45,076 nucleotides of DNA from positions 1-45,076 of the IMG/VR virus record IMGVR_UViG_3300047157_000136, one strand, 5' to 3'. This DNA comes from a virus. Below the pieces are notes generated by a model. It had not been told where the DNA came from, ran no database searches, and saw only the letters and a program-made list of their open reading frames with translations. Each line of letters starts with the position of its first letter. Position 1 is the stretch's first letter. This document shows, piece by piece, positions 1-45,076 of this stretch. The translations under genes were made by a program, and so were the position numbers.

Positions 1-107
1 CCATGCAAACCCTATTCCTAAAGCATTCTTATTTCAGAAGTGGAACAAAAACGGCAATAAATACCAATAGATTCCTCTCAGTTTTTCCACTTTTTTTCCA
101 CTTTTTA
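1..107. other. attP arm, left side (integrase arm-type sites)
   Basis: This stretch between the attachment point and the first gene holds two direct copies of TTTCCACTTTTT, with their CCAC cores at 87 and 98, 11 bp apart. A third copy lies in inverted orientation near 38-46 (AAGTGGAACAAAA). The same TTCCAC unit, again paired at 11-bp spacing, lies just downstream of the integrase at the other end of the window. Pairs of short repeats flanking the core are typical of arm-type sites for tyrosine integrases. Bases 1-3 (CCA) would complete the tRNA-like 3' end found at 45050-45076 if the ends are joined. The role is inferred from repeat position. Confidence 0.6.
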
Positions 108-108
108 T

Positions 109-1263
109 TTATGCGCTTCTTACTAATTTAAGGGACGCTGTGTTTCGACCGATCTCTCCATACTCTTTGTGATGAATTATGCAACTCATATCTCTGCCTG
201 AACGATAGCCAGCTCCAGCGTGCCAGGCATCCTTACCAGCCAGGGTTCTAAATGATTCCCAAACTACACCAGGAAACTCCATCGCTTGTCTGTTATGAAT
301 GTGACCTGTGTACCAGTATCTGTATTCCGCATTGCCCCACTCTTTAGGTTTGTCAGCTGCCATAATTCCTGGGAGCTTCTCAGGCTTGGATGTGTCTCCA
401 TGTGTTGAACCAATCAAGACATCACCAAAAGTGTAATACCAAAACTTAGATGGCTGTACATCGATAGTGACTCTGTCTTCATTACGAAAGTATTTTTCCA
501 TTGCAACAGAAAGCATTATTGACGATGTGTCATCATGGTTGCCAATGATATTTTTAACTGTCACATGTTTGTGTTTTTCTAGAGCTGAGACTGTAAGCTC
601 TATCATCAAATCGATTCCGACATTTAATACTTTAAACCATCGACCATCAACATCCAGGGCATTGCCGCTTCTTGCAGTCCTGTTGCTTGGATTATCAGAG
701 TGAAAAAAATCTCCCAGGTTAAGTATTAGCGCATTCTCTGATGCTGGACTTCTATCGACCAGGGCTTTAGTAGCTCTCTGTAAGTCACGAGTAGCAATCT
801 TAAGATCAAAATCTTCACCGCTCTCATCTCTATGTGCCAGCATTCCTATGTGTGGGTCACCCATCGGATAGACGCTTAGTAAGTCAGCATCAACTTCTCT
901 TGGAGCTTTAATTGGACAAGCTGTAAAGTCCGCCAGGGATTCGTTGAAGGCTTCAGCAATCTCTTCAGGAGTGTAGCCCTGGTTCTGTGTCTTAACCCAT
1001 TGGACTTTGACCTGGCCATCATCACCATACAAAGTAGACACGCCTTTGACATTAAAACCTTCACCAGCCAGGTGAGACATATTAGCCTCAGGTGCTATTC
1101 CTCTAGCCGCAGCTCTCTTCTTAACTAATCGTATCGATTTAGATACAGCTTGATGAGATACGCCTAATGATGACGCTACCTTTTCTACTGTTCCTAATTC
1201 GTTATATAGTTTTACTCTTGTGCGCTGCGAATCTGAATTACAGTATTCTAATAAATGTAGCAT
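109..1263 (-). CDS. calcineurin-like metallophosphoesterase with N-terminal HTH
   Basis: This 384-residue protein has the full set of metallophosphoesterase motifs in order: GDPHIG (D136, H138), GDFFHSDN (D185), GNHDD (N242, H243), THGD (H288) and GHIHN (H321, H323). These residues normally hold two metal ions and cut phosphodiester or phosphomonoester bonds, so a nuclease or phosphatase role is likely (SbcD-like superfamily). Residues about 14-50 resemble a helix-turn-helix (VEKVASSLGVSHQAVSKSI), which suggests DNA binding. It is the last gene of the leftward late transcript, directly after the holin and next to attP. The substrate is unknown. It could process phage or host DNA late in infection. 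The family call is secure, the function is not. Confidence 0.88.
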   Translation of the reverse strand: MLHLLEYCNSDSQRTRVKLYNELGTVEKVASSLGVSHQAVSKSIRLVKKRAAARGIAPEANMSHLAGEGFNVKGVSTLYGDDGQVKVQWVKTQNQGYTPEEIAEAFNESLADFTACPIKAPREVDADLLSVYPMGDPHIGMLAHRDESGEDFDLKIATRDLQRATKALVDRSPASENALILNLGDFFHSDNPSNRTARSGNALDVDGRWFKVLNVGIDLMIELTVSALEKHKHVTVKNIIGNHDDTSSIMLSVAMEKYFRNEDRVTIDVQPSKFWYYTFGDVLIGSTHGDTSKPEKLPGIMAADKPKEWGNAEYRYWYTGHIHNRQAMEFPGVVWESFRTLAGKDAWHAGAGYRSGRDMSCIIHHKEYGEIGRNTASLKLVRSA

Positions 1264-1271
1264 AATGCCTC

Positions 1272-1700
1272 CTATTTAGGACGGGCTAAAGCGGCTCCGA
1301 AGAAGAAACTAATGATCATTTCTGCGAAGGCATAAACCTCGGCGTTCTTGACCATACCTGTTACAGTCTCATAGGTTGTTACATCTGATGTCAATTTAAT
1401 GCCTAGTATTGAGACTCCTTCTTTAACTGTTGGAATGACTGTATCTAGTCCAGCTAATGGCGCAAACTGGATAGCTACTAATAGTCCCAGGATGACCAGG
1501 ATAATTATTCTTCTATTCATTGCAGCAAACGGACTTTCTTTAGCTGCCATTTGTCGTGCCTGGTTGATAGATTGATTCTGAGCTTGCATTGCTTGAATCA
1601 TTAATTTTTGTTGTTCGCTGTTAGCGTGCTGTTTCATTGCAAATAGCTTGCCAAAAAAGCCCAGGGCTATTGGTGCTACACTTGTTAATAAACTTATCAT
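1272..1700 (-). CDS. holin, three-transmembrane (GTA_holin_3TM-like)
   Basis: This 142-residue protein has three hydrophobic segments: about 1-20 (LLTSVAPIALGFFGKLF), 66-85 (IIILVILGLLVAIQFAPLAG) and 124-140 (AEMIISFFFGAALA). A Gln-rich helical region lies between the first two. This layout matches the 3TM holin family of gene transfer agents and phages, which form inner-membrane lesions at the end of infection. It sits in the late operon between small membrane/coiled-coil proteins and the phosphoesterase, where a lysis gene is expected. No endolysin is recognised beside it. The assignment rests on topology and context rather than on catalytic residues. Confidence 0.7.
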   Translation of the reverse strand: MISLLTSVAPIALGFFGKLFAMKQHANSEQQKLMIQAMQAQNQSINQARQMAAKESPFAAMNRRIIILVILGLLVAIQFAPLAGLDTVIPTVKEGVSILGIKLTSDVTTYETVTGMVKNAEVYAFAEMIISFFFGAALARPK

Positions 1701-1713
1701 AATAAACCTCTCA

Positions 1714-1920
1714 TCATAGTATTTGTAGTGCCTGTAAAAAGCCTACTTCTGTCGCGACAAAAAACGCGAACCCGCCGTACAGAAAATAACGAATCTGAGT
1801 TAGTATGTTCATTATCTTTTGTATGTTCTGATTTGTTTCATCCACCTTAGAAAAGAGCTTTGATATTTGTTGATGATGGTGATCAACTCTTCTTTCCAAT
1901 ACTTTTAATCTTTCATCCAT
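1714..1920 (-). CDS. small coiled-coil protein with C-terminal membrane helix
   Basis: A 68-residue protein. Residues 1-44 are a charged amphipathic helix with heptad-like spacing (VLERRVDHHHQQISKLFSKV) and residues 47-66 form one transmembrane segment (FLYGGFAFFVATEVGFLQAL). It is encoded 13 bp upstream of the holin start and 10 bp after the next gene upstream, so it belongs to the lysis group. Tail-anchored small proteins of this shape occur in phage lysis cassettes as hemolysin XhlA-like or holin-accessory proteins, and XhlA-like is my best guess. No catalytic feature is visible. Confidence 0.65.
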   Translation of the reverse strand: MDERLKVLERRVDHHHQQISKLFSKVDETNQNIQKIMNILTQIRYFLYGGFAFFVATEVGFLQALQIL

Positions 1921-1930
1921 AATGTTTCCT

Positions 1931-2431
1931 TTAATATGCCAATGGATTGTCCAGGCTTTGTTGTATTCTTTTCATTAAGTCTTCTCTTGTTTTATCTACT
2001 TTGTTTTCAAACTTAAATAACTTGTCATCGTATGAAGTAAATTTAGCGTCAACTTTTTGATCAAATGCTGTTATCTTTGCGTCTACTGATTGCAGTTTGT
2101 TATCTACTTTTGACTCAAGTGACCATTGACCGCTGCGAAGGTCGCTCATGTCTTTTTTAAGCTCCACCTTAATAGCTGAGATGTCTTCACCTACCCTATC
2201 TAAATCACTAGATGTTTGTTCCATTGCTGCGCTGATACTGCCCAGGTCTAATGCAGCCAGGGACTCAACCTTTTGATATAAAAGAAAGCCTCCATATAGC
2301 GAACCTACGAGCGTTGAGAGTAATGCAAACAAGCCCATAATACTGGCTCCACTTACACGCATCCCAAACAGCCTGAGCTTCCTGTCTTTTATGCCTTCGC
2401 CTTGTCTTACAATTTCTTCTAAGTCAGCCAT
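1931..2431 (-). CDS. membrane-anchored coiled-coil protein, possible lysis accessory/spanin-like
   Basis: A 166-residue protein with a short charged N-terminus, one transmembrane helix at about 30-52 (ASIMGLFALLSTLVGSLYGGF), and then a long coiled coil (60-160) with repeats such as LESKVDNKLQ, AFDQKVDAKF and FENKVDKTRE. If the N-terminus is cytoplasmic, the coiled coil lies in the periplasm, the topology of an inner-membrane spanin (Rz-like). No Rz sequence motif is seen, so this is a topological analogy only. Its stop codon shares one base with the start of the preceding gene's partner (TAATG junction at 2431), which suggests translational coupling with the signal-peptide protein encoded just upstream. 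Confidence 0.6.
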   Translation of the reverse strand: MADLEEIVRQGEGIKDRKLRLFGMRVSGASIMGLFALLSTLVGSLYGGFLLYQKVESLAALDLGSISAAMEQTSSDLDRVGEDISAIKVELKKDMSDLRSGQWSLESKVDNKLQSVDAKITAFDQKVDAKFTSYDDKLFKFENKVDKTREDLMKRIQQSLDNPLAY

Positions 2432-2850
2432 TAGTTTTCAAATGAAGTTGAGTTTTGCATTTCTTTTAATAGGTTTATTTCCTGGCGTAGCTTGGTCATT
2501 TCAAGGCGCTGCTTCTGAAGCATTAATTGATAGAGCGAATTGCAGTTGACTCGTTCTGCTGGCCCATCGATTGGTATGATTATTCGAGCATACAAGCCGA
2601 GGTCTTTTGTCTGCGGATTATTCAAATCGTCTTTGCCAATAATCGGAGCAGTTACATTATTAATTACACCTGTAATTCCCATTTCAAATAGTGTTCCTCC
2701 CGATACAGAATTAGCACATTGCATCTGTTCCATTTTCACGCTGTCTTGTCCATTACTTGAGCTGGCACTTGGCAAGGATAAGCTCATTGAATTACTTTCT
2801 GCCATCGTTTGTGTACAGAGCAATAGTAGAGCGTACCTTAACCAATTCAC
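2431..2850 (-). CDS. secreted protein, signal peptide plus C-terminal helix; unknown function
   Basis: A 139-residue protein with a Sec-type signal peptide (hydrophobic NWLRYALLLLCTQTMA, cleavage likely near residue 17). A Ser-rich linker follows, then a compact part with two cysteines in CANSVSGG and RVNCNSLY that could form a disulfide. The last 35 residues are a predicted coiled coil (LMLQKQRLEMTKLRQEINLL). It is translationally coupled to both neighbours (4-base and 1-base overlaps). It is the last of five consecutive genes for exported proteins. I do not recognise the family. A periplasmic or cell-surface role is inferred from the signal peptide. Confidence 0.6.
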   Translation of the reverse strand: MNWLRYALLLLCTQTMAESNSMSLSLPSASSSNGQDSVKMEQMQCANSVSGGTLFEMGITGVINNVTAPIIGKDDLNNPQTKDLGLYARIIIPIDGPAERVNCNSLYQLMLQKQRLEMTKLRQEINLLKEMQNSTSFEN

Positions 2851-3218
2851 TTAAACCTCGAACAGATTCTAGAAGAGACAAGTGGAGTATTATTTTCATT
2901 AGCTTTTATTTTTGATACAGAACATATATATTCAGCAGCTATAGAATTAGCCTCAGAAATATAAACATCAAACTTCACATTAGATAAGTAGTCAATCTGC
3001 ATGACTTTATATCTAGTCACAAATGGAAGAGGCTTCCAATTAATATCAAAGACACCAATCTCATACCATTCCACATCTGATCGTTTATTAAAAAGTTCCA
3101 TGCGTGTGTGCTTTACATCTGCAATGTGGCTAATACCCCAACTAGGGTATGTTGGCCGCATATCGTGAGCTGCTACACTACCGCATAGTAATAACAATAA
3201 TGCTACTGAGCTACGCAC
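2847..3218 (-). CDS. secreted protein with resemblance to a pilus-chaperone N-domain
   Basis: A 123-residue protein with a clear signal peptide (RSSVALLLLLCGSVAA, likely cut before HDM). The mature part is beta-rich. The stretch RMELFNKRSDVEWYEIGVFD followed by INWKPLP faintly resembles the first immunoglobulin-like strands of chaperone-usher chaperones, but at about 105 residues it is only one domain long and lacks the second domain. Two cysteines near the C-terminus (YICSV and RICSRF) could pair. Its start overlaps the end of the upstream lipoprotein gene by 16 bp. The chaperone comparison is by eye and weak. The secreted status is much firmer. Confidence 0.55.
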   Translation of the reverse strand: MRSSVALLLLLCGSVAAHDMRPTYPSWGISHIADVKHTRMELFNKRSDVEWYEIGVFDINWKPLPFVTRYKVMQIDYLSNVKFDVYISEANSIAAEYICSVSKIKANENNTPLVSSRICSRFK

Positions 3219-3724
3219 GAGGCCTCTGCTACTGCAACATACTGACCACCAGGGAAAGCCTTGTTTCCGTTATAAATTGCTTGTGATGCAACTGTCACAT
3301 ACATTGTTCCAGCATGAGTCAAAAAATAAGTTCTCATAGCGCCGTTATTCGTCACAGTTGAAGCAGCCTGGTATCCGCTCATATCTGAAGATGAGGCTGA
3401 TGCTATAGCTACGGCTCCTGTCCAGGTCACACTATTAGATAAGCTTGGGCTACTTGAAAAAGATGTGGGATAACTGACGATAGCCTTGTACGCGTTTGCG
3501 AGCGTTGATGTAATCCTTATCTTTGGAATTTGGCCATTTGATGCGGGCAGAGTTGTGAGGGTATAAGCATTTGGGTTACCGAAGTAACCTGGGATGTCTG
3601 TCACGACTTCGCATCTCGACTCAACTGTGCCACTTATATTTGTGTTTGCTGCTGCTTCTTTAGGCATTAACAAAGCACACCCTGTTAGCCCAATGGCTAA
3701 AAATAGTGTTATTAGTTTCTTCAT
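3203..3724 (-). CDS. putative lipoprotein with pilin/spore-coat-U-like beta domain
   Basis: A 173-residue protein. The N-terminus is a lipoprotein signal (KKLITLFLAIGLTGC, lipobox LTGC with lipidation at Cys16), so it should be anchored in the outer or inner membrane. The mature region begins NISGTVESRCEVV and ends GGQYVAVAEASCVAQ, with one cysteine near each end. That arrangement recalls secreted pilin-like (SCPU/fimbrial) folds in which the terminal strands are tied by a disulfide. A lipid anchor on such a domain is unusual. It lies directly downstream (ATGA overlap) of the 293-residue secreted protein. Surface display during lysogeny or infection, or an outer-membrane role at lysis, are both possible. 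Confidence 0.6.
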   Translation of the reverse strand: MKKLITLFLAIGLTGCALLMPKEAAANTNISGTVESRCEVVTDIPGYFGNPNAYTLTTLPASNGQIPKIRITSTLANAYKAIVSYPTSFSSSPSLSNSVTWTGAVAIASASSSDMSGYQAASTVTNNGAMRTYFLTHAGTMYVTVASQAIYNGNKAFPGGQYVAVAEASCVAQ

Positions 3725-4602
3725 TTGTTGTATTGCTCCTCTATCATTGTTTGATGTAGCCTATCGTTTGATAGACCTCGTAATACTTTTCGATTGTCGG
3801 ATATGCCCTGGTCTTTCAAGACAATAGTTTCTCTATAAACTTTGCTAGGAATTTGAGCAATATAATAAGAGTCCATATTTACAACAGAATTCATTGCAGT
3901 AATAAGACTTGATTGTGTTAAACCATTAGCAAGCGTTAAAGCATTTTCAGTAACAGATAGCATTGCTTCCAATCTGTTTTTATCTTCCTCGTCTTTGTCT
4001 TCTTGTTCACTTGTTTCTTTGTCTTCAAATAAATCTTTATCTGTTTCTTTTGAGGCTAACTTAACTGAGTCATCATCCAACGCATCGTATATTTCGATTG
4101 GAGGTGGTATTGGTGGAATATAGTTAGGACAACTAGGATCAGTTGGAATTCGGCATTCATCAAACCGATACATATAAATAACAGACTCATCTTCTAAACT
4201 TCCTGTGCCTGTTGTAGCAATAGACCCTTGACCGAAATTCTCAATAGGTATATAAGGAAGTTGTAAGACTTTTCTAATTCTTATAGGATGCTTACCTGAA
4301 AAATCTTCGGTGTCCTGGAATATGTATCCATTGCCAGCAGCATTCTCGTTTTGAACTGTTACTGTAAAGTTATCACCTACTTCCTTGATCGGATTGTAAG
4401 TATAAATAACACCACTAATATCAAGCCCTTCCTGGACACTAACGCCAAGAACAGGAGAAGTCATACCCCAGGTGTTAGCTCCTGAGGCAGCATTACTTGT
4501 ATAGCCAAAAGTATAGCTATAACTAAAAGAACACAAAGGCAGCAGCAACAGTCCCCATAAGACTGATAATCTGCTCGCGCTTCTCTTTTGCAGTTGCTTC
4601 AT
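3721..4602 (-). CDS. secreted protein: beta domain, acidic linker, helical C-terminus
   Basis: The start at 4602 is chosen because GAGGAAGAAA lies just before this ATG and it begins a good signal peptide (KQLQKRSASRLSVLWGLLLLPLCSFS). Upstream in-frame starts would add 44 residues that bury the signal. The 293-residue product has a beta-rich part (SYTFGYTSNAASGANTWGM onward, with the pair DECRIPTDPSC), then a proline run (IPPIPPPIEI). A strongly acidic, low-complexity stretch follows (EDKETSEQEDKDEED), and finally an Ala/Leu/Asn-rich helical end. It overlaps the upstream gene by 80 bp in another frame. No family recognised; export is well supported. Confidence 0.55.
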   Translation of the reverse strand: MKQLQKRSASRLSVLWGLLLLPLCSFSYSYTFGYTSNAASGANTWGMTSPVLGVSVQEGLDISGVIYTYNPIKEVGDNFTVTVQNENAAGNGYIFQDTEDFSGKHPIRIRKVLQLPYIPIENFGQGSIATTGTGSLEDESVIYMYRFDECRIPTDPSCPNYIPPIPPPIEIYDALDDDSVKLASKETDKDLFEDKETSEQEDKDEEDKNRLEAMLSVTENALTLANGLTQSSLITAMNSVVNMDSYYIAQIPSKVYRETIVLKDQGISDNRKVLRGLSNDRLHQTMIEEQYNK

Positions 4603-5083
4603 TTTCTTCCTCAGGTACTGGTATTTTGTCGCTATGTACTTCCCAGGCTGCTTTAGCCTCATCTGATAATAAGCCCTCATAAGGGCAGTAGGATCCAGCA
4701 TGCGCCATACTACGAAAAACGATAGGATTTTCACAGAGAACGCTGATTGCAGCGACCTTCATTCCCATGTTGTATAAAGCGTGACTGAGCTGTAGGGTTT
4801 GGCACAGTTCGTCTTCGTGCATACCTCCCAGGCTAAGTCCAAATATCTGTGTTTGTACTGCTCCACTTGCAGAAACAGAACATAAAAAATCTGTACTGCT
4901 ACTAGTAATTTGGCTTGCGATGGCTGAAGGTGGAGGCGATTCCACCTTAGTCGTTTGCGTCCCATTACTTGTTACAGTTGACTCTGAAACAATAGGGTCT
5001 GCGGCCATAGTCGAAAAGGATATGATCCAAAATGCTAAGACTATAAACCCAGCTATTACATTGTTACGCAGTCTGTCAGACAT
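4523..5083 (-). CDS. secreted cysteine-containing protein, unknown function
   Basis: A 186-residue protein with an N-terminal signal peptide or anchor (NVIAGFIVLAFWIISFSTMA, cleavage near AADP). A Ser/Thr-rich spacer follows, then a conserved-looking core with four cysteines (FLCSVSASGAVQTQIFG, DELCQTLQ, VLCENP and YCPYEG), which could form two disulfides in the periplasm. The C-terminal 14 residues are hydrophobic (ISLMGTVAAAFVFF) after a charged helix. The 3' 80 bp also encode the start and signal peptide of the next gene in another frame. It is the first of the five-gene exported cassette, with its ATG sharing a base with the stop of the small tail-fibre chaperone-like gene. Confidence 0.6.
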   Translation of the reverse strand: MSDRLRNNVIAGFIVLAFWIISFSTMAADPIVSESTVTSNGTQTTKVESPPPSAIASQITSSSTDFLCSVSASGAVQTQIFGLSLGGMHEDELCQTLQLSHALYNMGMKVAAISVLCENPIVFRSMAHAGSYCPYEGLLSDEAKAAWEVHSDKIPVPEEENEATAKEKREQIISLMGTVAAAFVFF

Positions 5084-5313
5084 TAGGCTTCTACTTTAGC
5101 TGCCTTTAATTCATCAGTCGTAGTCATACTATCTACTTGATTTGTAATATCTCTGAGCCTTTGTTTCTCTGTCACAATAGCAGAAGTATCTGAGCCAGCT
5201 TCTTGTGCCTTCATAAACAGAATGTCTTGTTCCTCTAACAGAGGTTTTCTTTCTGCTCTAAGTCTGTCTTTAGTGATGACTTTAGCTTTAGTTATATCAA
5301 CTTGGATTGGCAT
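5083..5313 (-). CDS. small helical tail-fibre-associated protein (putative chaperone)
   Basis: A 76-residue, mostly helical, charged protein: ITKAKVITKDRLRAERKPLL, then EEQDILFMKAQEAGSDTSAI and KQRLRDITNQVDS, ending in TTDELKAAKVEA. The pattern 'DITKAK ... R..R..LL..D..FM.A.E.G' and a terminal 'TPEELKA'-like end recur in small proteins encoded beside phage tail fibres and thought to help fibre assembly. The start at 5313 is preferred over 5319 because GGAG lies 7 nt before it. It overlaps the upstream 100-residue gene by 17 bp and ends at the start of the secreted cassette. Function by analogy only. Confidence 0.55.
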   Translation of the reverse strand: MPIQVDITKAKVITKDRLRAERKPLLEEQDILFMKAQEAGSDTSAIVTEKQRLRDITNQVDSMTTTDELKAAKVEA

Positions 5314-5599
5314 CGTCATACTCCTTTTGTGTCATTTGGTTGTATTTAAGTTTGTCCTCGTCAGATAAATCTGCTGAAGTCTTTTCATCAGAACCAGCAG
5401 TATATGTCCAAGCATTTCTAAATGTTCTGTCAGACAAGTCAACTGAGTCAGCTATGATTTCGTACTTAGTGCCAGTAGGTAAATCTTTGTTAGCTATGTG
5501 TATTAGCTTTTCTTCTAGCGTTCCTTCTAGCTGTGCTAAGAATTTAGAAGCTGGTATTATTACTGCTGCAACTCCACTATTGTCATATATTAATCTCAT
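5297..5599 (-). CDS. small tail-fibre-associated protein (DRTFRNAW-type)
   Basis: A 100-residue protein. It carries YEIIADSVDLSDRTFRNAWT in its middle. The 'DRTFRNAW' signature is familiar from small phage proteins encoded next to tail fibres in many tailed phages, where it is annotated as tail-fibre assembly or hypothetical. The C-terminal third is acidic (DEKTSADLSDEDKLKYNQM). It sits between the last tail-fibre module (5603-6460) and the helical partner downstream, overlapping the latter by 17 bp, so the two are probably co-translated. Role in fibre assembly is inferred from position and signature. Confidence 0.6.
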   Translation of the reverse strand: MRLIYDNSGVAAVIIPASKFLAQLEGTLEEKLIHIANKDLPTGTKYEIIADSVDLSDRTFRNAWTYTAGSDEKTSADLSDEDKLKYNQMTQKEYDDANPS

Positions 5600-5602
5600 A
5601 TC

Positions 5603-6460
5603 TTAATCTCCAAAAACTAATGCTTCAATAATGCTAGTATCAGCGTTAGCATTACCATTTTCTACCCAAATTTGTATTTGGCTGGTGGTAGCTGGATAAG
5701 CTGCTGCTGTCGCATTCCAATCGTTATTAGATGATGTAACACAAAAATTAGTGCTAGCCATAGCATTAGTCAAATTAACCTGATAATTGCCCGTACCACT
5801 ATCAGCAATACTGCTGACATTATGTGAATCTCTAGTAGCTATAGTTCCTGTGCCATCAAAGTTAATCCAAGCCTTTCCAGTAAACTGTGACAAGCCTCTG
5901 CCATCGTTTGTAATTTCTAGTTTTTTTGCTGGTGCTGCATCTGTAGTTCCATCTCTTGTAGCAACAACAAAAGAACCGTTAGTAACACCTGAAGCACTTG
6001 TAGTTACCATTCCAACTTCTACAGGAGCTTTTACGGTAGCACCGTTGGTATATCCAAAACCAATAGAATAAATACTTCCGTTTCCAGCCCAACTATTATC
6101 GCCACCTACTTTTACTAAAGGTGAACCGTAAGATGTCGTTACATTTGCAGCTGGGTCTATGTGTAGTGTTGCTCCTAGTGCCGAGGCTTTGCCAACTCCT
6201 ACATTCTCACTCGAATCAATTGTTATAGCAGTAGCATCAGCACTAGACGAGATACCAGCTACTCCAACTCCTGTTAAAGCAGCACCCGATATGGCTGGTA
6301 ACGCTCCTGTCAGCTTGGTCGCATCAATTGTAGTAGAAGTAAACGCACCAGCAGAACTGATACTTGCTTTCTCTACTCCGTTGGCTTGGAACTTTATATC
6401 CTTAGAAGAACCATCAGCGTTTAGTGTTAGATGTTCGTCACTTGATTTTATTGTTGACAT
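5603..6460 (-). CDS. tail fibre / receptor-binding module protein
   Basis: A 285-residue protein rich in Gly, Ser, Thr and Ala with very few charged residues, typical of trimeric beta-structured tail fibres. The N-terminus (TLNADGSSKDIKFQANG) and the linker (ATKLTGALPAISGAALTGVG) match recurrent phage fibre building blocks. The same KLTGALPAISGA unit is in the 257-residue fibre protein at 8930-9703, so the two share modules. The C-terminal part (NAMASTNFCVTSSNNDW onward) resembles small beta domains at fibre tips. Likely role is host recognition. The gene starts 1 bp from the previous stop and is part of a continuous nine-gene fibre cassette. Confidence 0.7.
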   Translation of the reverse strand: MSTIKSSDEHLTLNADGSSKDIKFQANGVEKASISSAGAFTSTTIDATKLTGALPAISGAALTGVGVAGISSSADATAITIDSSENVGVGKASALGATLHIDPAANVTTSYGSPLVKVGGDNSWAGNGSIYSIGFGYTNGATVKAPVEVGMVTTSASGVTNGSFVVATRDGTTDAAPAKKLEITNDGRGLSQFTGKAWINFDGTGTIATRDSHNVSSIADSGTGNYQVNLTNAMASTNFCVTSSNNDWNATAAAYPATTSQIQIWVENGNANADTSIIEALVFGD

Positions 6461-6461
6461 A

Positions 6462-6989
6462 TTAAGCTCCTATTTCCATAAGTGTTATTGTAGAAACATT
6501 ACCATCAATGCTTGTAAAAATAGTGCCACCTGAAGGGGTTTTCATTTGCATCTTATATGTTGTAGCTGAAGTTGTGTTAGGAGAGTCTAAATAATCAAAC
6601 GCTATCCACGCTTCGTGATAGCTAGTTTCACCAGCACCGTGTCCATCTGATTTTTCTGATGCACCTTGAATTGAAGTAGACCCTCTCATAAGACGAGAGC
6701 CAATACCAGCTGATGTACCAGTTACTCCAAAATTCATCCCTACTTTTATTAATACTTTACTAGAACTTGCAGAAGGTGTTATTGTTGCTGTTAAACCAGT
6801 ATCTACCATACTACCTGAAGTAGTTGAGGTTTCACCTGTGTCAACTGCATTAATAACTTGTAACACTTTTCCAAAACTACCACTAATTTTTGAACCAGCA
6901 ATAGCAGCACTACTATTTATGTCAGCATTGACAATCGTGTTGTCTTGTATCTTGTTGACTCCAGTTGAGCCACTAATCTCTGTTGGCAT
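6462..6989 (-). CDS. tail fibre module protein (jelly-roll-like repeat family, paralog 1)
   Basis: A 175-residue protein. The first 40 residues (TGVNKIQDNTIVNADINSSA) are related to the N-terminus of the 70-residue product at 8402-8614 (ITTNEILDNTITASDINSAV). The rest belongs to the same family as the products at 7329-7874 and 7874-8362. Shared features are DTGLTATITPSASSSKVLIK (a 'GL..T.TPKS.SSK..I' strand pair), a central LDSPNTTSATTYKMQM segment and an ending such as STITLMEIGA. It looks like an anchor plus receptor-binding beta domain. Several such copies side by side suggest domain shuffling in a host-range locus. Confidence 0.68.
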   Translation of the reverse strand: MPTEISGSTGVNKIQDNTIVNADINSSAAIAGSKISGSFGKVLQVINAVDTGETSTTSGSMVDTGLTATITPSASSSKVLIKVGMNFGVTGTSAGIGSRLMRGSTSIQGASEKSDGHGAGETSYHEAWIAFDYLDSPNTTSATTYKMQMKTPSGGTIFTSIDGNVSTITLMEIGA

Positions 6990-6998
6990 TTACTACTC

Positions 6999-7316
6999 CT
7001 ATGGTTTAGGGTTTGCGTCTTTCACAGCTTTAATTGCTTTGTGCCACTCACCTGTTGCATCTAACTTACCAGCAGTCATATCGTGGTACAGTTGATCTAA
7101 CTGTTCCTTGATTTCTGCATAAGCTGTTGCCCTTGTTCTTTGGTATGCGTTACCATCATAGACACCTTGCAGTCTTGTAACCTCTGCGTCTATTTGTGAT
7201 TGGGTAGGTTCAGTTTGTTTACTGTCCAACCACTCTAATTCGTCACCTCTCAATACCCATTCAGCTCCTGGCTTTAAAGATTGAAGGGCATCGACTGTTG
7301 TCATCTCATTTGCCAT
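6999..7316 (-). CDS. tail fibre assembly-like protein, paralog A
   Basis: A 105-residue protein that is clearly paralogous to the 98-residue protein at 8624-8920. Both begin with a 'SL.P.A.W.L' segment, contain the motif EPTQSQIDAEVTRLQGVYD and end in KAIKAVKDANPKP or an equivalent. The 'PTQ.EIDAE..RLQ' signature is common in small phage proteins encoded beside tail fibres (XkdW-like or fibre assembly proteins). It sits between two fibre modules. The duplication suggests each fibre module may have travelled with its own small partner. Function is inferred from location. Confidence 0.62.
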   Translation of the reverse strand: MANEMTTVDALQSLKPGAEWVLRGDELEWLDSKQTEPTQSQIDAEVTRLQGVYDGNAYQRTRATAYAEIKEQLDQLYHDMTAGKLDATGEWHKAIKAVKDANPKP

Positions 7317-7328
7317 TTCTTACTCCTG

Positions 7329-7874
7329 TTATAAAATTTCTTTAATTATCATATGGGCGAAAGCTGTACCGCCCGTGTTCATACCAAACTTCCAGCTATT
7401 GTTAGATCCTGAATATTTTCTTCCTTGAAACTTGTAAGTTACTGAAGAAGTAGTATTTGGTGAATCAATATGAACAATATTAAGCCAAGGATAAAAATCA
7501 CTTGATGCCCAACTAGGGTTCATATATTCATTCCATCGACCAGCTACAATCATTGTTGAATCTCTAAGTATTCTGTGGTCTTGTCCTGAATGCCCTGGGG
7601 AATTGTTATTATTCATTTCTGTTGCTCCGTGAATAATAATTTCAAACTTGCTTGATGTGCTTTTTGGTGTCAAGGTAATACTTAAACCCGAATCTGCGTA
7701 ATCTCCACTATTGAAAGTAACTCCGTTGGTAGTAGCTAAAACACTTGAATGGTAGGAAACCATACTGCCAGTTGGCAGACTTGCATATGTCATTCCCGAT
7801 AGCTGATTTTGGAGAGCAATTGTTCCTGAGCCATCTGCGGTTTGTATTTGGTCTACTTTAATTTTTGATGCCAT
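7329..7874 (-). CDS. tail fibre module protein (paralog 2)
   Basis: A 181-residue beta-rich protein. The N-terminus (ASKIKVDQIQTADGSGTIAL) is a short trimerisation or attachment segment often seen in marine phage structural proteins. The remainder carries the family signature ADSGLSITLTPKSTSSKFEI, then HIDSPNTTSSVTYKFQGRKY and a C-terminal FAHMIIKEIL. The C-terminal strand pattern is shared with the neighbouring 162- and 175-residue proteins. Its ATG overlaps the stop of the next upstream gene by one base. Probably a receptor-binding or fibre-tip protein; which paralog touches the receptor cannot be told from sequence. Confidence 0.65.
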   Translation of the reverse strand: MASKIKVDQIQTADGSGTIALQNQLSGMTYASLPTGSMVSYHSSVLATTNGVTFNSGDYADSGLSITLTPKSTSSKFEIIIHGATEMNNNNSPGHSGQDHRILRDSTMIVAGRWNEYMNPSWASSDFYPWLNIVHIDSPNTTSSVTYKFQGRKYSGSNNSWKFGMNTGGTAFAHMIIKEIL

Positions 7875-8362
7875 TAGCCCGCTACCTCCATAAGTGTAAT
7901 ACTTGATGATGACCTTTCTGAACCTGTGTGATAATCATTAAATCGAACTGAATCACTACTTCCTCTGTTTCTAATTTGCAATTTATAAACATTAGCACTT
8001 GTATTATTTGGGCTGTCTAAATAATTAATAGCACAAGAACCTGTAGAAAAGGTAGCTCCACTTGTAACAAATGTTGGTCTTAAATAATATGCCAATATAC
8101 TTCCTCTGCCGTGTAAAGCTAATTCTGGTTGCGCTCCGCTTCCATTTTGACTAAATCCGTGACCATTTATAATAACCATAATTTTGCTAGAACTAAACTT
8201 TGGAGTTATTGTTGCAGTTAATCCAGTATCTCCAAAGCTAGTTGAAGTAGTATTTAAAAAAGTTGTATTAATAGACTGAACAACTTGTAATATTGCTCCA
8301 GCTGGCATATCCAAATCATAACCACTAGGTGCTTGTATCGCTTTGACTTCTAATGTACTCAT
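7874..8362 (-). CDS. tail fibre module protein (paralog 3)
   Basis: A 162-residue protein of the same family as the 175- and 181-residue neighbours. It opens with STLEVKAIQAPSGYDLDMPA, contains DTGLTATITPKFSSSKIMV and LDSPNNTSANVYKLQIRNRG, and ends SSSSITLMEVAG. Its ATG overlaps a TGA at 8359-8361 that is the stop of the out-of-frame extension of the 8402-8614 gene. This ATGA junction supports the view that the upstream gene originally read through to this point. Role in host recognition is inferred from family and position. Confidence 0.65.
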   Translation of the reverse strand: MSTLEVKAIQAPSGYDLDMPAGAILQVVQSINTTFLNTTSTSFGDTGLTATITPKFSSSKIMVIINGHGFSQNGSGAQPELALHGRGSILAYYLRPTFVTSGATFSTGSCAINYLDSPNNTSANVYKLQIRNRGSSDSVRFNDYHTGSERSSSSITLMEVAG

Positions 8363-8422
8363 ACCACACTCCAGTTTCCGTTGACTGTGACTGTGTAGCC
8401 ATCAGCGATTGTTATTGGTCCC
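8359..8422 (-). other. frameshifted C-terminal coding remnant of the 8402-8614 gene
   Basis: Reading the minus strand from 8421 gives 20 sense codons (GPITIADGYTVTVNGNWSVV) and TGA at 8361-8359, which overlaps the ATG of the next gene. The segment is in the +1 frame relative to the annotated gene and matches the C-terminal motif of the 663-residue tail fibre. The three consecutive Gs at 8422-8420 are the likely site of a single-base insertion or slippage. Confidence 0.7.
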
Positions 8423-8614
8423 AGCACTCATACCGTTACTCGTAGAAGCAATGGTTATGTTCTCGCTTATTGTTTGGGCATTGGTTCTAATCACACTCGA
8501 AGCACCTAGACTTGGACCACCTAACTCTACTGCTGAGTTAATGTCACTAGCAGTAATTGTGTTGTCTAGTATTTCGTTGGTTGTAATTCCACCGCCACTA
8601 ATCGTTATTGCCAT
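8402..8614 (-). CDS. short tail fibre protein, C-terminus shortened by a one-base frameshift
   Basis: As read, this is a 70-residue protein (MAITISGGGITTNEILDNTI onward) ending abruptly in MSAGTNNNR. Its N-terminus matches the first 40 residues of the 175-residue fibre protein at 6462-6989. The natural C-terminus of this family lies in the +1 frame just past a GGG at 8420-8422: skipping one G restores GPITIADGYTVTVNGNWSVV and a stop that overlaps the next ATG. The 663-residue fibre ends in the related ALTAGPITINSGVSVTIP followed by TGSTWIVA. So the gene is frameshifted by mutation, by sequencing error, or by programmed slippage. The short form may be non-functional. Confidence 0.6.
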   Translation of the reverse strand: MAITISGGGITTNEILDNTITASDINSAVELGGPSLGASSVIRTNAQTISENITIASTSNGMSAGTNNNR

Positions 8615-8623
8615 TCGTTACTC

Positions 8624-8920
8624 CTATGGTTTTGGAAACTCAGACTTAATTGCTACTATGGCATCCTTGTGTGTAGTCGTGCCATTAATAGAATCATCGC
8701 TGATTAATTCAAATTGATTTAACGCATCGTATTTAGCTTTGCGTTTTCTTGCGTATTCTTGTGAGTCGTAGACTGCTTGAAGTCTAATTACTTCAGCATC
8801 AATTTCTGCTTGAGTAGGTTGTACAATATCATCAGACTTCCATATTACTACTCCATCTAATGGTAAAGTCCATACTGCGTTAGGTGTTAATGATTTTATT
8901 GCGTCTATTATTGTAATCAT
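8624..8920 (-). CDS. tail fibre assembly-like protein, paralog B
   Basis: A 98-residue protein paralogous to the product of 6999-7316. Shared features are an N-terminal 'IKSLTPNAVWTL' segment, the core VQPTQAEIDAEVIRLQAVYD, a basic helix (YARKRKAKYDALNQFEL) and a closing 'HKDAIVAIKSEFPKP'. Such small proteins accompany tail-fibre genes in many phages and are suspected assembly partners. It lies between the 257-residue fibre module and the frameshifted short fibre gene. The two paralogs differ most in the middle, where partner specificity could lie. That is inference. Confidence 0.62.
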   Translation of the reverse strand: MITIIDAIKSLTPNAVWTLPLDGVVIWKSDDIVQPTQAEIDAEVIRLQAVYDSQEYARKRKAKYDALNQFELISDDSINGTTTHKDAIVAIKSEFPKP

Positions 8921-8929
8921 AAGTATGTC

Positions 8930-9703
8930 CTAATTAACTTCTAAAATTGTCCAATTAAGTGTCAAAGCATCGCTGCCTGAACTACCACCACCTAAGTGAT
9001 TAAAATATCCCGTATCACCACAATTGTATGCTTGAACATAAAATTGATAGGTTATTGTATCCCCAGCAGTATGTGTTAAAGCACTATCATAAACATGACA
9101 ATGACCTGTATCTTCATCCCAATTGTAAGCTGCGTTACCATTTATATAACGACTATAAACAGGATAAGTAGTAGCACTAGAATAACTTCCACTATTTACT
9201 TTTCTATATAACCATTGAGCAGAACCAGTATTACCTCCTGAAGGAGCAGTATTAATGTGTGGAGTCCATCCTGAAGCGTCAATTATAAAATTTGAATTTG
9301 TTACAGTTGAAGTTATAGAAAAAGTGACTCCAGTAGCTGTTATTGCGCAAGAACCTGAATGAGATATATTACTAGTCATTTGAATTTGTCCAGCAGCATA
9401 ACTCAATATTTTTCCACCCATACCCGCAGGCAAAGAACCTGTAAGATTTGCTGCTGGAATAGCTGTTAAACTAGCACCACTAATCGCTGGTAAAGCACCA
9501 GTTAATTTAGAAGCTGTTAGAGCTGAAATCCTAGCATCTGCAACTGTGCCTGTTAAGTTAGCTGCTGGTACGCTAGAGTTCTCATCTAACAGAGTACCTG
9601 TTGTGTCGGGTAATGTTATCGTTCTGTCTGTACTCGTATTCGGAGCAGTTACAGTTAGTACCCCTGTTCCTGAAGCGTGACCTGTGAGTTTTATTTTTGA
9701 CAT
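8930..9703 (-). CDS. tail fibre protein with collagen/beta-helix-like linker repeats
   Basis: A 257-residue protein. The N-terminus GTGVLTVTAPNTSTDRTITL followed by PDTTGTLL is a segment very common in marine phage fibres. It is followed by repeated linkers (PAANLTGTVADARI, SKLTGALPAISGASLT, PAANLTGSLPAGM). The C-terminal 150 residues form a Gly/Ser/Tyr-rich domain with two cysteine-containing stretches (DTGHCHVYDSALTHTAGDT and QAYNCGDTGYFNH), likely the tip. It shares linker modules with the 285-residue fibre at 5603-6460. It is separated by 7 bp from the large T7-type fibre gene, so the two are probably expressed together. Confidence 0.7.
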   Translation of the reverse strand: MSKIKLTGHASGTGVLTVTAPNTSTDRTITLPDTTGTLLDENSSVPAANLTGTVADARISALTASKLTGALPAISGASLTAIPAANLTGSLPAGMGGKILSYAAGQIQMTSNISHSGSCAITATGVTFSITSTVTNSNFIIDASGWTPHINTAPSGGNTGSAQWLYRKVNSGSYSSATTYPVYSRYINGNAAYNWDEDTGHCHVYDSALTHTAGDTITYQFYVQAYNCGDTGYFNHLGGGSSGSDALTLNWTILEVN

Positions 9704-9710
9704 ATATCTC

Positions 9711-11702
9711 CTATGCTACTATCCAAGTTGAACCCGTTGGAATCGTAACTGAAACCCCTGAGTTGATCGTTATCGGCCCAGCAGTTAAAGCATTGTTGCC
9801 ACTTGTTATGCTATAGTTAGCTGCTATGGTGTGAGCGTGTTCGTACAAACCTTTAGTTGTTGTGTTAGCGTCCGTATCTAAAACTGCCCAGGAAGCTGCT
9901 GAACCATTTGTTGTAAGATACTTTCCACTATTACTAGACTGTGATGGTAGTGCGTCTACTTCTGCCCAGGTCATACCACCTGTGGCTCCTGACTGAGCTG
10001 ATAAGAAGTAACCATTCGTTGGTGCGTTGCTGACTTTTAAGTTAGCTTCATCAACAACATTTCCAGCAATTACTGTAGCGCCATCTGCTGTCGATGTCAC
10101 TTCGCCACTATGGTTAGGGTGTGTGTAGTTTGCTATCTGTACCCAGGCAGAACCATTGTAGTAATACAAAACATCTGTGCTAGTGTTGAAGTATAAATCA
10201 CCTTCATCGAGATCACTTGTTGGCGCAGAGCTTGCGACTCTGTATCTTTCACCAAAACTGTTAACTCCAGCAATGTTTGCGGCTGTTGTGTTTACATTCG
10301 CAATGTTAGTAGCGACTGTGCCTACATTCGTGTTTGACCCAGCAACAGTATTCACATTAGCAATGTTTGTTGCGACTGTGTCCATGTTGGTTACATTAGA
10401 ACTTGTAGCCAGGGTGTTCATGTCGCTTACGATGTCTGATGTAGCCAGGGTGTTCATATCTGAGACTACATCGGCAGTACCCAGGGTGTTCATATCGGAT
10501 ACCACATCTGAGGTTCCAAGCGTATTCATATCCGCAACAACATCAGTCGTAGCTAAGATAGCCATGTCAGCTACCGCATCCGCCGTACCTAATCTTCCAA
10601 TCTCTGTCGCTTTACCAGCAACCACACCTATGTCTGTAGCGTCCGCAGCAACCGCATTAATATTAGAAGCGTTTCCAGCAACAGCCGTTACATTACTTGA
10701 GATGCCCGCAACAGTCGTAATGTTTGATGAGATACCCGCTAGAGTATTCATGTTAGTAACATTGCTTGATGATGCTAGAGTGTTCATATCAGCAACAACA
10801 TCTGCCGTACCTAAAGTATTAAGATCACTTACAACATCAGCTGTACCTAGCGTGTTCATGTCGGCTACTACATCTGCTGTGCCAAGTGTGTTCATATCTG
10901 CGACCACATCTGTGGTTCCCAGGATAGCCATATCCGCGACTGCGTCTGATGTGCCTAGCCTACCTATTTCTGTAGCCTTGCCCGCGACTACGCCAATATC
11001 TGTGGCGTCTGCTGCGACCGCGTTAATGTTTGTTGCGTTACCCGCGACCGCTGTGACATTAGATGATATACCAGCAACAGTAGTTACATTTGACGAAATA
11101 CCAGCGACTGTTTGAATCGCATCAGTAGCATCGGTTCCGTCTTCAATATCAGCAAGCGTTGCGATGTCTGCTGTGATAGATGCCAGGGTAGATACATCTG
11201 CTATTTTAGGCCCCGCTTCAGGGTCTCCTGAGGTAGCGTTAAAGCCTAGAACTGTTCCTTTCCTGGTGTCTTTATTTGGCAAGGTCATATCAGAGCTTGT
11301 TGGGTCTGTGACTGGGCCTCTTAATGTTCTGTCTAACTCTTCCTGATTCTGAAGAGCAAACTGTGTTTGTTTATCAAATGCGGTTTCGTGAACCTCTGCA
11401 AAAAAACCACCCTGGTTCTGTAAGTCTGTTGCTTGTAAGAAGTCCTGTTTTCGTCTTATCGTTATTTTTTCACCTGATGCTAAAGGTGAGCCTGATACTG
11501 GGTATGTGATAGACCCTGAGTCTGCACCTACCCCTGAGACTGTATAGTGCGTTGTGATACTTAGTGTTGTGTCAACACCTGAAGCATTGGTCTTAATTAC
11601 CTCAAGATGCGATTGATCTAAAATCTTAAAGTTATAGGCAAAGGTTGTAGCACTAGCATTACCATTATGCTGGTTCTTAGTCGTAGTTGTGGATATAGTC
11701 AT
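9711..11702 (-). CDS. large tail fibre, T7 gp17-type N-terminal anchor and 12-residue repeats
   Basis: A 663-residue protein. Residues 1-135 match the N-terminal virion-anchor domain of T7-like tail fibres (FAYNFKILDQSHLEV, SGEKITIRRKQDFLQATDL, and an ending like QNQEELDRTLRGPV). The middle carries two tandem blocks made of 10-12-residue units such as LGTADVVADMNT and VAGISSNVTAVAGN, which probably form a long coiled or beta shaft. The C-terminus ends in ALTAGPITINSGVSVTIP and TGSTWIVA, a motif also present out of frame at 8359-8421. The gene is the first after the 18-bp promoter motif at 11744-11761. AAAGGGC precedes the ATG as ribosome binding site. Role: main fibre shaft carrying the smaller modules. 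Confidence 0.82.
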   Translation of the reverse strand: MTISTTTTKNQHNGNASATTFAYNFKILDQSHLEVIKTNASGVDTTLSITTHYTVSGVGADSGSITYPVSGSPLASGEKITIRRKQDFLQATDLQNQGGFFAEVHETAFDKQTQFALQNQEELDRTLRGPVTDPTSSDMTLPNKDTRKGTVLGFNATSGDPEAGPKIADVSTLASITADIATLADIEDGTDATDAIQTVAGISSNVTTVAGISSNVTAVAGNATNINAVAADATDIGVVAGKATEIGRLGTSDAVADMAILGTTDVVADMNTLGTADVVADMNTLGTADVVSDLNTLGTADVVADMNTLASSSNVTNMNTLAGISSNITTVAGISSNVTAVAGNASNINAVAADATDIGVVAGKATEIGRLGTADAVADMAILATTDVVADMNTLGTSDVVSDMNTLGTADVVSDMNTLATSDIVSDMNTLATSSNVTNMDTVATNIANVNTVAGSNTNVGTVATNIANVNTTAANIAGVNSFGERYRVASSAPTSDLDEGDLYFNTSTDVLYYYNGSAWVQIANYTHPNHSGEVTSTADGATVIAGNVVDEANLKVSNAPTNGYFLSAQSGATGGMTWAEVDALPSQSSNSGKYLTTNGSAASWAVLDTDANTTTKGLYEHAHTIAANYSITSGNNALTAGPITINSGVSVTIPTGSTWIVA
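10390..11110. repeat. tandem protein-coding repeat blocks in the tail fibre shaft
   Basis: Two consecutive blocks of about 370 bp encode nearly the same peptide series: VAGISSNVTAVAGN, INAVAADATDIGVVAGKATE, then several 36-bp units for L-G-T-x-D-V-V-x-D-M-N-T. At the DNA level the blocks differ mainly at third codon positions (compare about 10588-10662 with 10954-11029). The regular composition also removes stop codons from the opposite strand, giving a spurious 312-codon open frame there. Confidence 0.75.
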
Positions 11703-28549: not shown

Positions 28550-29542
28550 TTAGCTTACTAAGGCTTCGTTGTTTAAAATAGCGTCATTTCTTCTGAATGG
28601 AATACCATCGAAAGACATTACACGCTTCCCAGCTACCTCATCCATAGATAGACGAACATTACTTGTGTTAGTAATTTGGCGTCTTAGGATTGAAGAGATT
28701 GTGCGGTTACCATAGAACACGCAACGACCTAGATTTACATTAGGTAGTTTTTCTACAGCTTGTACCATTAGATCAACTAAAGCAGCAGATGAACCTGAAG
28801 CATCTTTAGTTAGGTTAGATACATCAATGTTCGGGATACGAACAATGTAACGCCAATCTCTAACTGACATACCGATGTCCCACTTGTAGTGAGTTCTGTA
28901 ACCCTGGTACTTACCATTCGCAGCATCCTCTAAAGTCACTTCGCCTAGGTCTTGATGATTCAGACCAGCTTGTGAACCCTTAGGGTAGATACCATGACAA
29001 GTGTTAGGCCCCCAGCACACCAACCAAACTGATGTGTTGTCCGAACCTGACCCACCACCTACGATGATGTTGTCACCTGACTCAGCAGTAGTTGAATTAT
29101 AGCGAGCTGATAGTCCCATGAATTTCTCAGGGTCTGTACCAGTATCACCATAGAACAATGTGTTAGCCATTGTTTGGTTCATTGACTCTAGGAATGCTCT
29201 GTCCTCAGATAGACGGAAAGAAGCGGTGTTACCATTTAGATCAGCAAGCGCCTTATCCACTTCAGCATACGCCTCAAGCATACCTGTAGTATCAGTAATC
29301 TGAACAGTTGTACTCTTTGAAGGTTGAACACCATAGTTGAGCTTACGCCAAGTTGACGCGGGTAGTCCTGAACGGACTGTAGTTCTATGACCAGTTGGAA
29401 GATTTCCTTCTAGGAATGTCATATCATCTAAGACTTCATTAGTCTCAGCTAACAATTCCACGATAGTATCAATCTTGCCATCAGCGTCATACCTCTTTGC
29501 TACATCAGCCAAAGTAGGATTTGTAGTTGACAATACTGCCAT
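28550..29542 (-). CDS. major capsid protein (HK97-fold, Bbp17-like)
   Basis: A 330-residue protein in the position and size of the BPP-1 group capsid protein. Characteristic segments are MAVLSTTNPTLADVAKRYDA, ETNEVLDDMTFLEGNLPTGH, VRSGLPASTWRKLNYGVQPS and GMLEAYAEVDKALADLNGN. The C-terminal part, with NVNLGRCVFYGNRTISSILR and FDGIPFRRNDAILNNEALVS, fits the P-domain of HK97-fold subunits. It follows the scaffold gene by 25 bp with GGAGTATAACA upstream as a ribosome binding site. A short N-terminus without a long delta domain agrees with a separate scaffold gene. Confidence 0.9.
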   Translation of the reverse strand: MAVLSTTNPTLADVAKRYDADGKIDTIVELLAETNEVLDDMTFLEGNLPTGHRTTVRSGLPASTWRKLNYGVQPSKSTTVQITDTTGMLEAYAEVDKALADLNGNTASFRLSEDRAFLESMNQTMANTLFYGDTGTDPEKFMGLSARYNSTTAESGDNIIVGGGSGSDNTSVWLVCWGPNTCHGIYPKGSQAGLNHQDLGEVTLEDAANGKYQGYRTHYKWDIGMSVRDWRYIVRIPNIDVSNLTKDASGSSAALVDLMVQAVEKLPNVNLGRCVFYGNRTISSILRRQITNTSNVRLSMDEVAGKRVMSFDGIPFRRNDAILNNEALVS

Positions 29543-30554: not shown

Positions 30555-30716
30555 GGGTTTATTAGCGTCTTCTAATGACAGATTAACAAACCCACAATCT
30601 TGTAAAAACTCCAGGGTAATCAGCATTGACTCGTGATGTAATTGGTTCTCAGGATGCGGCTCCATGTACTGTAAATTAGTGACCGCATCTATCGCATCAT
30701 CAATGCTAACAACCAT
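30543..30716 (-). CDS. small acidic protein, coupled to the portal gene
   Basis: A 57-residue protein not obvious by length alone: it begins MVVSIDDAIDAVTNLQYMEP and ends VNLSLEDANKPNEN. The ATG shares its first base with the portal gene's TAA (TAATG at 30718-30714), a standard coupling arrangement. The 3' end runs into the late promoter motif, so the gene is tightly packed in. It is acidic and probably helical, with no recognisable motif. Small proteins encoded right after podovirus portals are usually structural or assembly proteins of unknown role. Expression is inferred from coupling and codon-level continuity. Confidence 0.55.
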   Translation of the reverse strand: MVVSIDDAIDAVTNLQYMEPHPENQLHHESMLITLEFLQDCGFVNLSLEDANKPNEN

Positions 30717-43667: not shown

Positions 43668-43952
43668 ATGTTAGAATATAAAACTATCGGGCAATTCGCA
43701 GCTGAATCAGGCTACACAGAAAGAGCCGTTAGGGAAAAGATAAGGAAAGGTGTTTTCCCTGAAGATGATGTTTGGTTGCGTGGCCCCGATAATAGAATTT
43801 TAATAAGTATAAAAGGGTTTAATGAATGGGTAAGAAACGGATCGGAGTTTCTGTCGGAAGTGAAAGTAGCGTCACCCTTACCTTCCGTTACCAAGAGCGT
43901 ACAGTTAAAGAACGAATTAAAACTAGGGGTAAGCCCACTAGTGCTGACTTAG
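43668..43952 (+). CDS. excisionase-like HTH protein, overlapping integrase
   Basis: A 94-residue protein. Residues 1-57 resemble phage excisionases: YKTIGQFAAESGYTERAVRE, then KIRKGVFPEDDVWLRGPDNR and ILISIKGFNEWV. The last 42 codons (43827-43952) lie on the same DNA as the first 42 codons of the integrase, in another frame, a 127-bp overlap. The C-terminal tail (VKVASPLPSVTKSVQLKNEL) could be a by-product of the overlap. It likely directs integrase toward excision by bending attR/attL DNA. Confidence 0.72.
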   Translation: MLEYKTIGQFAAESGYTERAVREKIRKGVFPEDDVWLRGPDNRILISIKGFNEWVRNGSEFLSEVKVASPLPSVTKSVQLKNELKLGVSPLVLT

Positions 43953-44998: not shown

Positions 44999-45049
44999 TT
45001 CCACTTTTATTCCACATTGACTGTACAGACCCTACTACTACAACATGAT
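44999..45049. other. attP arm, right side (integrase arm-type sites)
   Basis: TTCCACTTTTATTCCACATT right after the integrase stop contains two direct CCAC cores at 45001 and 45012, 11 bp apart. This is the same unit and spacing as at 84-106 on the other side of the circular junction. The remainder (to 45049) has no gene. Together with the left arm this gives the expected P-core-P' layout. Confidence 0.6.
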
Positions 45050-45076
45050 GACAGGGTTCGAATCCCTGTCCCTCCA
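45050..45076 (+). other. attP core: 3' end of a tRNA or tmRNA
   Basis: CAGGG (45052-45056), loop TTCGAAT, CCCTG (45064-45068) is a perfect T-arm. It is followed by TCCCTCC (45069-45075), an acceptor 3' strand, and discriminator A (45076). Bases 1-3 of the window (CCA) complete the terminus. The U at acceptor position 70 (CTCCA) is compatible with tmRNA or tRNA-Ala-like ends, and a serine tRNA is also possible; no 5' half is present, so it is not a functional RNA gene here. It marks integration into a host RNA gene. Confidence 0.78.

Follow-up and report, generated by a model that had tools for sequence, protein, structure and literature searches.

A conserved six-gene block in marine viruses encodes exported proteins with predicted pilin-like and chaperone-like folds and may act on the envelope at lysis

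Two kinds of described system come closest to the genes treated here: the chaperone-usher pili (Fim, Pap, Caf1, CFA/I and the archaic Csu/CupE) and the phage spanins (Rz/Rz1, T1 gp11). No spanin was found in 91 of 677 surveyed phages, and type I inner-membrane and outer-membrane proteins were suggested as possible unrecognized spanins (PMC6139136). Here, we analyze a block of six genes, A to F, on the minus strand of a window of 45,076 nucleotides (nt), meaning the whole stretch of DNA studied (positions 1 to 45,076 of IMG/VR virus record IMGVR_UViG_3300047157_000136; all coordinates are those of the window). Like chaperone-usher pili, the block has adjacent genes for an exported pilin-like protein (C) and a PapD-like protein of immunoglobulin (Ig)-like fold (D); unlike them, it has no usher in the window, is too distant for Pfam, and is carried by a phage together with A, B, E and F. 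Like spanin loci, it encodes a membrane-anchored exported protein (A) in a lysis-gene neighborhood, together with a putative inner-membrane coiled coil (F); unlike them, it comprises six genes rather than one or two, has predicted folds of pilin and chaperone type, and lacks a conserved outer-membrane lipoprotein.

The genes lie in the order A-B-C-D-E-F, and each of A to E starts with an export signal:

Gene A: 4523..5083, minus strand, 186 amino acids (aa); open reading frame (ORF) with family alignment; signal peptide, Ser/Thr/Asn-rich arm, four-cysteine domain and C-terminal transmembrane segment
Gene B: 3721..4602, minus strand, 293 aa; ORF with alignment; signal peptide, Pro-rich and acidic linker
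Gene C: 3203..3724, minus strand, 173 aa; predicted pilin-like subunit (AlphaFold/Foldseek and hhalign)
Gene D: 2847..3218, minus strand, 123 aa; predicted single-domain PapD-like (Ig-like) chaperone (AlphaFold/Foldseek)
Gene E: 2431..2850, minus strand, 139 aa; signal peptide and invariant cysteine pair (alignments)
Gene F: 1931..2431, minus strand, 166 aa; transmembrane segment at the N-terminus, then a periplasmic coiled coil, an i-spanin-like architecture

Neighboring genes overlap by 80 nt (A/B), 4 nt (B/C, ATGA), 16 nt (C/D), 4 nt (D/E, GTGA) and 1 nt (E/F, TAATG). A 337-aa reading of B from a GTG is possible, but relatives favor the 293-aa protein that starts at ATG. A sequence-only reading of this DNA had described five overlapping exported genes at 2431-5083, with products of 186, 293, 173, 123 and 139 residues. 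The ORFs and measured overlaps confirm those five, but the true unit has six genes, as F closes the block in relatives.

We scanned IMG/VR with A, and afterwards used E, C and D profiles as queries. Relatives were confirmed for 135 of 153 pattern matches to A, 455 of 521 to D, and at least 575 of at least 600 to each of E and C, and each of the four baits retrieved the other genes of the block. In a profile search of 322 fetched loci, most complete loci carried ABCDEF on one strand (196 exactly, 17 more with genes G and H, described below, following, plus variants). Counted without duplicates, 180 distinct complete loci keep this order. The viruses are marine and uncultured. Contigs with the block are a few kb to 220 kb long, and examples of 119, 131, 146, 155 and 220 kb have the complete set of six, so several virus types carry it. 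Pairwise distance correlations among the six proteins were 0.54-0.78, and for C and D none of 500 permutations was as high. By these sequence comparisons, the six proteins share a history and are co-inherited as a unit.

The features that mark these proteins as exported are conserved as well. Signal-peptide-like starts, called like transmembrane segments by simple hydropathy rules, were present in 77% of the non-redundant members for A, 75% for B, 99% for C, 95% for D and 91% for E, compared with 20% of neighboring ORFs (n=1,338). Cysteine pairs are kept in all five families: C38/C170 is invariant in C, B has a nearly invariant C150/C158, D keeps C99/C119, E keeps C45/C103, and A keeps C68/C94/C117/C133. 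Both properties had been claimed from the window, and both hold across the families. We are nearly certain that this is a conserved block of six genes devoted to exported proteins.

Known families shed little light on it. Sequence searches of A to E against Pfam, NCBIfam, PADLOC and the Protein Data Bank (PDB) gave chance-level matches only, with E-values of at least 0.036 for the PADLOC anti-phage defense models against the block, and the PHROGs that rose above chance for A to E were all families of unknown function. A nucleotide search against phage records found no match, and at tblastn sensitivity 50,697 such records gave none for B, C or D either, in keeping with the earlier description of the block as unusual. 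Weak matches to E occurred in 78 phage records, mostly of Vibrio phages. Literature searches found no report of an A-F module. We considered A to E as tail-fiber or tail-chaperone proteins and rejected the assignment, because no family matched and the export signals are conserved.

To assign folds, we modeled C and D with AlphaFold, using input alignments realigned without the row from the annotated phage record. The model of C had a predicted local distance difference test (pLDDT) score of 90.9. Its best seven Foldseek matches in the PDB were all chaperone-usher pilins, led by CfaB and the PapG pilin domain (E-values from 1.4e-3 to 5.6e-3, all above 0.001; probability 0.98-1.00). Against 20 pilins of Escherichia coli K-12, hhalign gave 85% for the phage C family and 95% for the bacterial C family described below; families A, B, D and E, compared as negative controls with the same pilins, gave 0.1-17%. 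Conserved motifs lie in the N-terminal strand, I.G.V..(K/R)C, and the C-terminal strand, G.Y.A.V.A.C. From predicted fold and profile comparison, C is thus very likely pilin-like. The sequence-only reading had called it a lipoprotein with a pilin-like domain, and the second half of that description stands. The first does not hold as a family trait: the lipobox, LTGC, occurs in the window and close relatives and in 3 of 86 C proteins overall, mainly in the window's own clade.

D was modeled with a pLDDT of 91.5, and its best eight PDB matches were all pilus chaperones, including SafB, FaeE, PapD, Caf1M and FimC (E 2.0e-4 to 7.0e-4, probability 1.00). The alignment covers one chaperone domain (template modeling score 0.64 by query, 0.42 by target), and the classical chaperones matched have two domains (targets of 183-207 aa), whereas D has one domain in 123 aa including its signal. 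The conserved Cys99 and Cys119 sit in the last two strands, Cys119 in the final one; chaperones of the Caf1M type have a comparable cysteine link. A library of viral structures gave three matches below 1e-3, one of them an uncharacterized phage protein. The model makes a chaperone-like D highly probable, in line with the resemblance first noticed in its sequence, and neither predicted fold is that of an ordinary tail or spanin protein. Such ordinary folds, or signals lost in relatives, would have counted against the earlier reading, and neither was seen. With respect to chaperone-usher systems, the block has a predicted PapD-like fold in D and a predicted pilin fold in C, and it has neither an usher nor a two-domain chaperone.

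C, D and E also occur without the rest of the block. Scanning genomes with E revealed C-D-E on the chromosomes of Nitratireductor soli, in three tandem copies, and of Photobacterium chitinilyticum. E-profile matches were present in 36 of 299 genomes of the first family and 24 of 198 of the second, or about 12%. These operons resemble the phage genes in having homologous C, D and E (hhalign, phage against bacterial, 98.0%, 98.1% and 99.7%) in a compatible order: either C-D-E, in many cases with extra C paralogues after it, or, in vibrio-type loci, D-E-C. They differ in having several C paralogues and no A, B or F, which were not found in the bacterial loci (one match to B, at 0.04, is chance-level). 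The E proteins of phages group together as a separate clade (support 0.52), and four loci from a metagenome-assembled genome proved viral. Coordinates of two of the bacterial operons are L328 5499-10585 and L329 6133-9163, and further examples are among L331-L395. In Photobacterium, a gene for an EAL-domain protein follows C-D-E.

No usher-sized large exported protein was listed among the genes flanking bacterial C-D-E (flanks of up to 16 kb), and the usher family PF00577 was absent from 12 of 20 bacterial genomes bearing C-D-E. The window's cassette likewise has no usher-sized exported ORF, and E is unlike the K-12 ushers. C-D-E is therefore probably usherless. The bacterial operons, for which literature searches found no published description, look like an undescribed usherless pilin system and would bear on the minimum needed to assemble pilus-like fibers.

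The other members of the block have distinctive anatomies. A carries the motif ..AVQTQILG..YNMGMKVAA..C.. in its four-cysteine domain and a C-terminal transmembrane-like segment in 93% of 91 members, from which we infer a type I topology. A lipobox occurs in one of the 91, so A does not show the N-terminal lipobox plus C-terminal transmembrane segment of a unimolecular spanin. It matches PHROG 20531 (E 8.7e-11), of unknown function. The arms of A, with Asn/Thr repeats, vary greatly in length (about 150-350 aa of total protein in L052, L059, L060, L067 and L071) and read like an adjustable spacer ahead of the cysteine domain. B, found in 285 loci, has a beta-rich-looking N-terminal domain and a conserved C-terminus (..DN..LR.L..D.LH..M...QY), and no Pfam or PDB match; compared with the proteins after A in pelagiphages, hhalign gave just 20-23% probability over 37-46 columns. 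E has two alternating-hydrophobic, strand-like stretches (FEMGITGVI and LYARIIIPI) and a C-terminal helix-like region, with no match in Pfam, the PDB or the K-12 usher set. F has a hydrophobic N-terminal segment and a coiled coil ending in NPLA(Y/N/D). Its architecture fits an i-spanin, and it weakly matches an Rz-like spanin PHROG (E 0.0068). In one relative (L326 4471-4884), a gene for a BTLCP-like transglutaminase/cysteine peptidase (PF06035, E 4.4e-5, below cut-off) lies between E and F.

Downstream of F, the window continues with two genes in a lysis context:

Gene G: 1714..1920, minus strand, 68 aa; small XhlA/hemolysin-like membrane protein (matches PHROG 1193 hemolysin at E 7.3e-5 and, below cut-off, Pfam XhlA at E 6.6e-4)
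Gene H: 1272..1700, minus strand, 142 aa; holin-like protein with three transmembrane (TM) segments (GTA_holin_3TM, E 0.051)

This setting recurs. Of 56 distinct loci that extend 4 kb or more past F, 32 carry holin- or endolysin-like genes in that stretch, 15 of them with an endolysin family; the upstream counterpart is 1 of 12 loci (these statistics come from fragments and from clusters that we defined). Lysis-context representatives match PF00959, PF05838, PF07486 and lipase class 3. In L097 (4679-5404), L324 (9197-9904) and about 20 other loci, F is closely followed by a gene for such a class 3 lipase, which could attack lipids of the envelope during lysis. DUF1353 membrane proteins encoded between the XhlA-like and holin-like genes (L003 4804-5379, L013 3883-4461, L242 9132-9713) are a possible undescribed lysis gene.

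Pelagibacter and Vibrio phages carry parts of the block in similar company. A is present in Pelagibacter phages HTVC115P, HTVC023P and Mosig, and F in HTVC115P by profile. These relatives of A adjoin lysis genes: in HTVC023P, A is four genes ahead of an M15 endolysin, and in Mosig a separate 3-TM protein beside A passes the Pfam holin cut-off (E 1.6e-5). Profiles identify C, D and E, the last of them unannotated, in Vibrio phage Morian, at E-values of 1.3e-6, 6.4e-6 and 1.7e-13 respectively, and A, B and F were not found in it. Its distant C-D-E lies about 1.2 kb before an M15 endolysin; the E homologue (L084 5881-6267) overlaps the end of D and precedes the small lipoprotein-like gp144 and the endolysin, gp147. 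As A and F, or A-B-F, also occur without C-D-E in about 19 loci of the profile search, the block appears by sequence to be made of two separable parts, A-B-F and C-D-E.

Of 105 relatives, 11 encode a small lipoprotein no more than 3 kb from F, which is no enrichment over the upstream control (3 of 39), and the window has no convincing lipoprotein ORF apart from C. Canonical spanins therefore seem rare in these viruses, and with a lipobox in so few C proteins, no outer-membrane lipoprotein of the o-spanin kind emerges as a family trait. A and possibly E fit the descriptions of the suggested unrecognized spanin types (PMC6139136).

While the anatomy of the block is well supported, its function is inferred from this setting. 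We tentatively propose that A to F form one envelope-acting, spanin-like module of the late operon that disrupts the envelope at the time of lysis. A more specific and more doubtful form of this proposal is that C-D-E is an usherless chaperone-pilin machine, common to an undescribed bacterial surface system, that breaks the outer membrane at lysis, adding a third route to those of the two-component and the unimolecular spanins. Under the broader proposal, D would keep hold of C within the periplasm, and subunits of C would be passed to E, a small protein at the gene position usual for an usher, a placement suggested solely by gene order. An outer-membrane-associated polymer or patch could then form without a classical usher, with A and F tethering it to the inner membrane. 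As holin and endolysin act, the trans-envelope assembly would disrupt the outer membrane in place of Rz/Rz1 spanins. If so, the block would be a concrete and widespread marine-virus candidate for opening the Gram-negative outer membrane without recognizable spanins, with Morian as a cultured distant relative that has C-D-E.

Several observations weigh against this proposal. The outer-membrane placement of E is hypothetical. Compared with nine K-12 chaperones, D gave hhalign values of 0.7% (phage alignment), 0.5% (bacterial) and 48% (mixed); we take its chaperone identity from the predicted fold, because sequence profiles give no support. No endolysin was recognized in the window (1-34800), despite the holin-like and XhlA-like genes, and Morian gp144, read by eye, may be an o-spanin-like lipoprotein. 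Late operons also carry morons, so that position amounts to guilt by association. Finally, C-D-E is found in bacterial chromosomes without lysis genes, and its ancestral role was therefore other than lysis, perhaps in a surface structure.

One alternative we consider unlikely but take seriously: the block would build a fiber or coat on the infected cell, with C polymerized by D on an outer-membrane base of E, altering adhesion or blocking adsorption of further phages, and would have no part in lysis. The folds of C and D do belong to adhesive pilus systems, the C paralogues of the bacterial operons resemble minor pilins, and the Photobacterium EAL-domain gene would suit surface adhesion under cyclic-di-GMP control. 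However, a fiber would have to be made without an usher and would have little useful time before lysis, and it does not account for the late-operon site beside holin or endolysin genes in many relatives, or for a lysis setting in two separately organized contexts (pelagiphages with A-B-F, Vibrio phages with C-D-E). The sequence-only reading had listed surface remodeling, superinfection blocking and lysis or outer-membrane disruption; context favors the last, and nothing specific to the first two was found.

A classical spanin pair in disguise, with F as i-spanin, C as o-spanin, and A, B, D and E as unrelated morons, is a good deal less probable. It draws on the architecture of F and its Rz-like match, and on the lipobox of C in the window and close relatives, but that lipobox is rare in the family, C has a pilin fold, and the six genes co-evolve as a unit. 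We give still less credence to a role in the virion, in which the exported proteins would be a periplasmic chaperone system for tail fibers or entry machinery delivered on infection. The block does directly follow tail-fiber and tail-chaperone genes in the window, but the upstream genes differ in other loci, no tail family was matched, and tailed-phage virions assemble in the cytoplasm while the export signals of A to E are conserved.

Outside the block, the window is a podovirus genome, including tail proteins and a 3287-aa ORF:

109-1263: exonuclease, after H in the order A to H
5083-5319: tail-assembly chaperone, directly upstream of A
5083-11702: tail-fiber and tail-chaperone genes, upstream of the block
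28550-29542: head protein
30716-32368: portal (head-tail adaptor)
32920-34221: terminase
43826-44998: tyrosine-recombinase-like ORF

Within 1-6600, a promoter scan gave 6 matches against 16.4 in shuffles, and terminator-like sites numbered 8 against 3.9, several of them intragenic; neither was used as evidence. At the right edge (43826-45076), ARAGORN found no whole tRNA, and a sequence like the 3' end of a tRNA follows the tyrosine-recombinase-like ORF, which suggests an attachment site at a tRNA gene.

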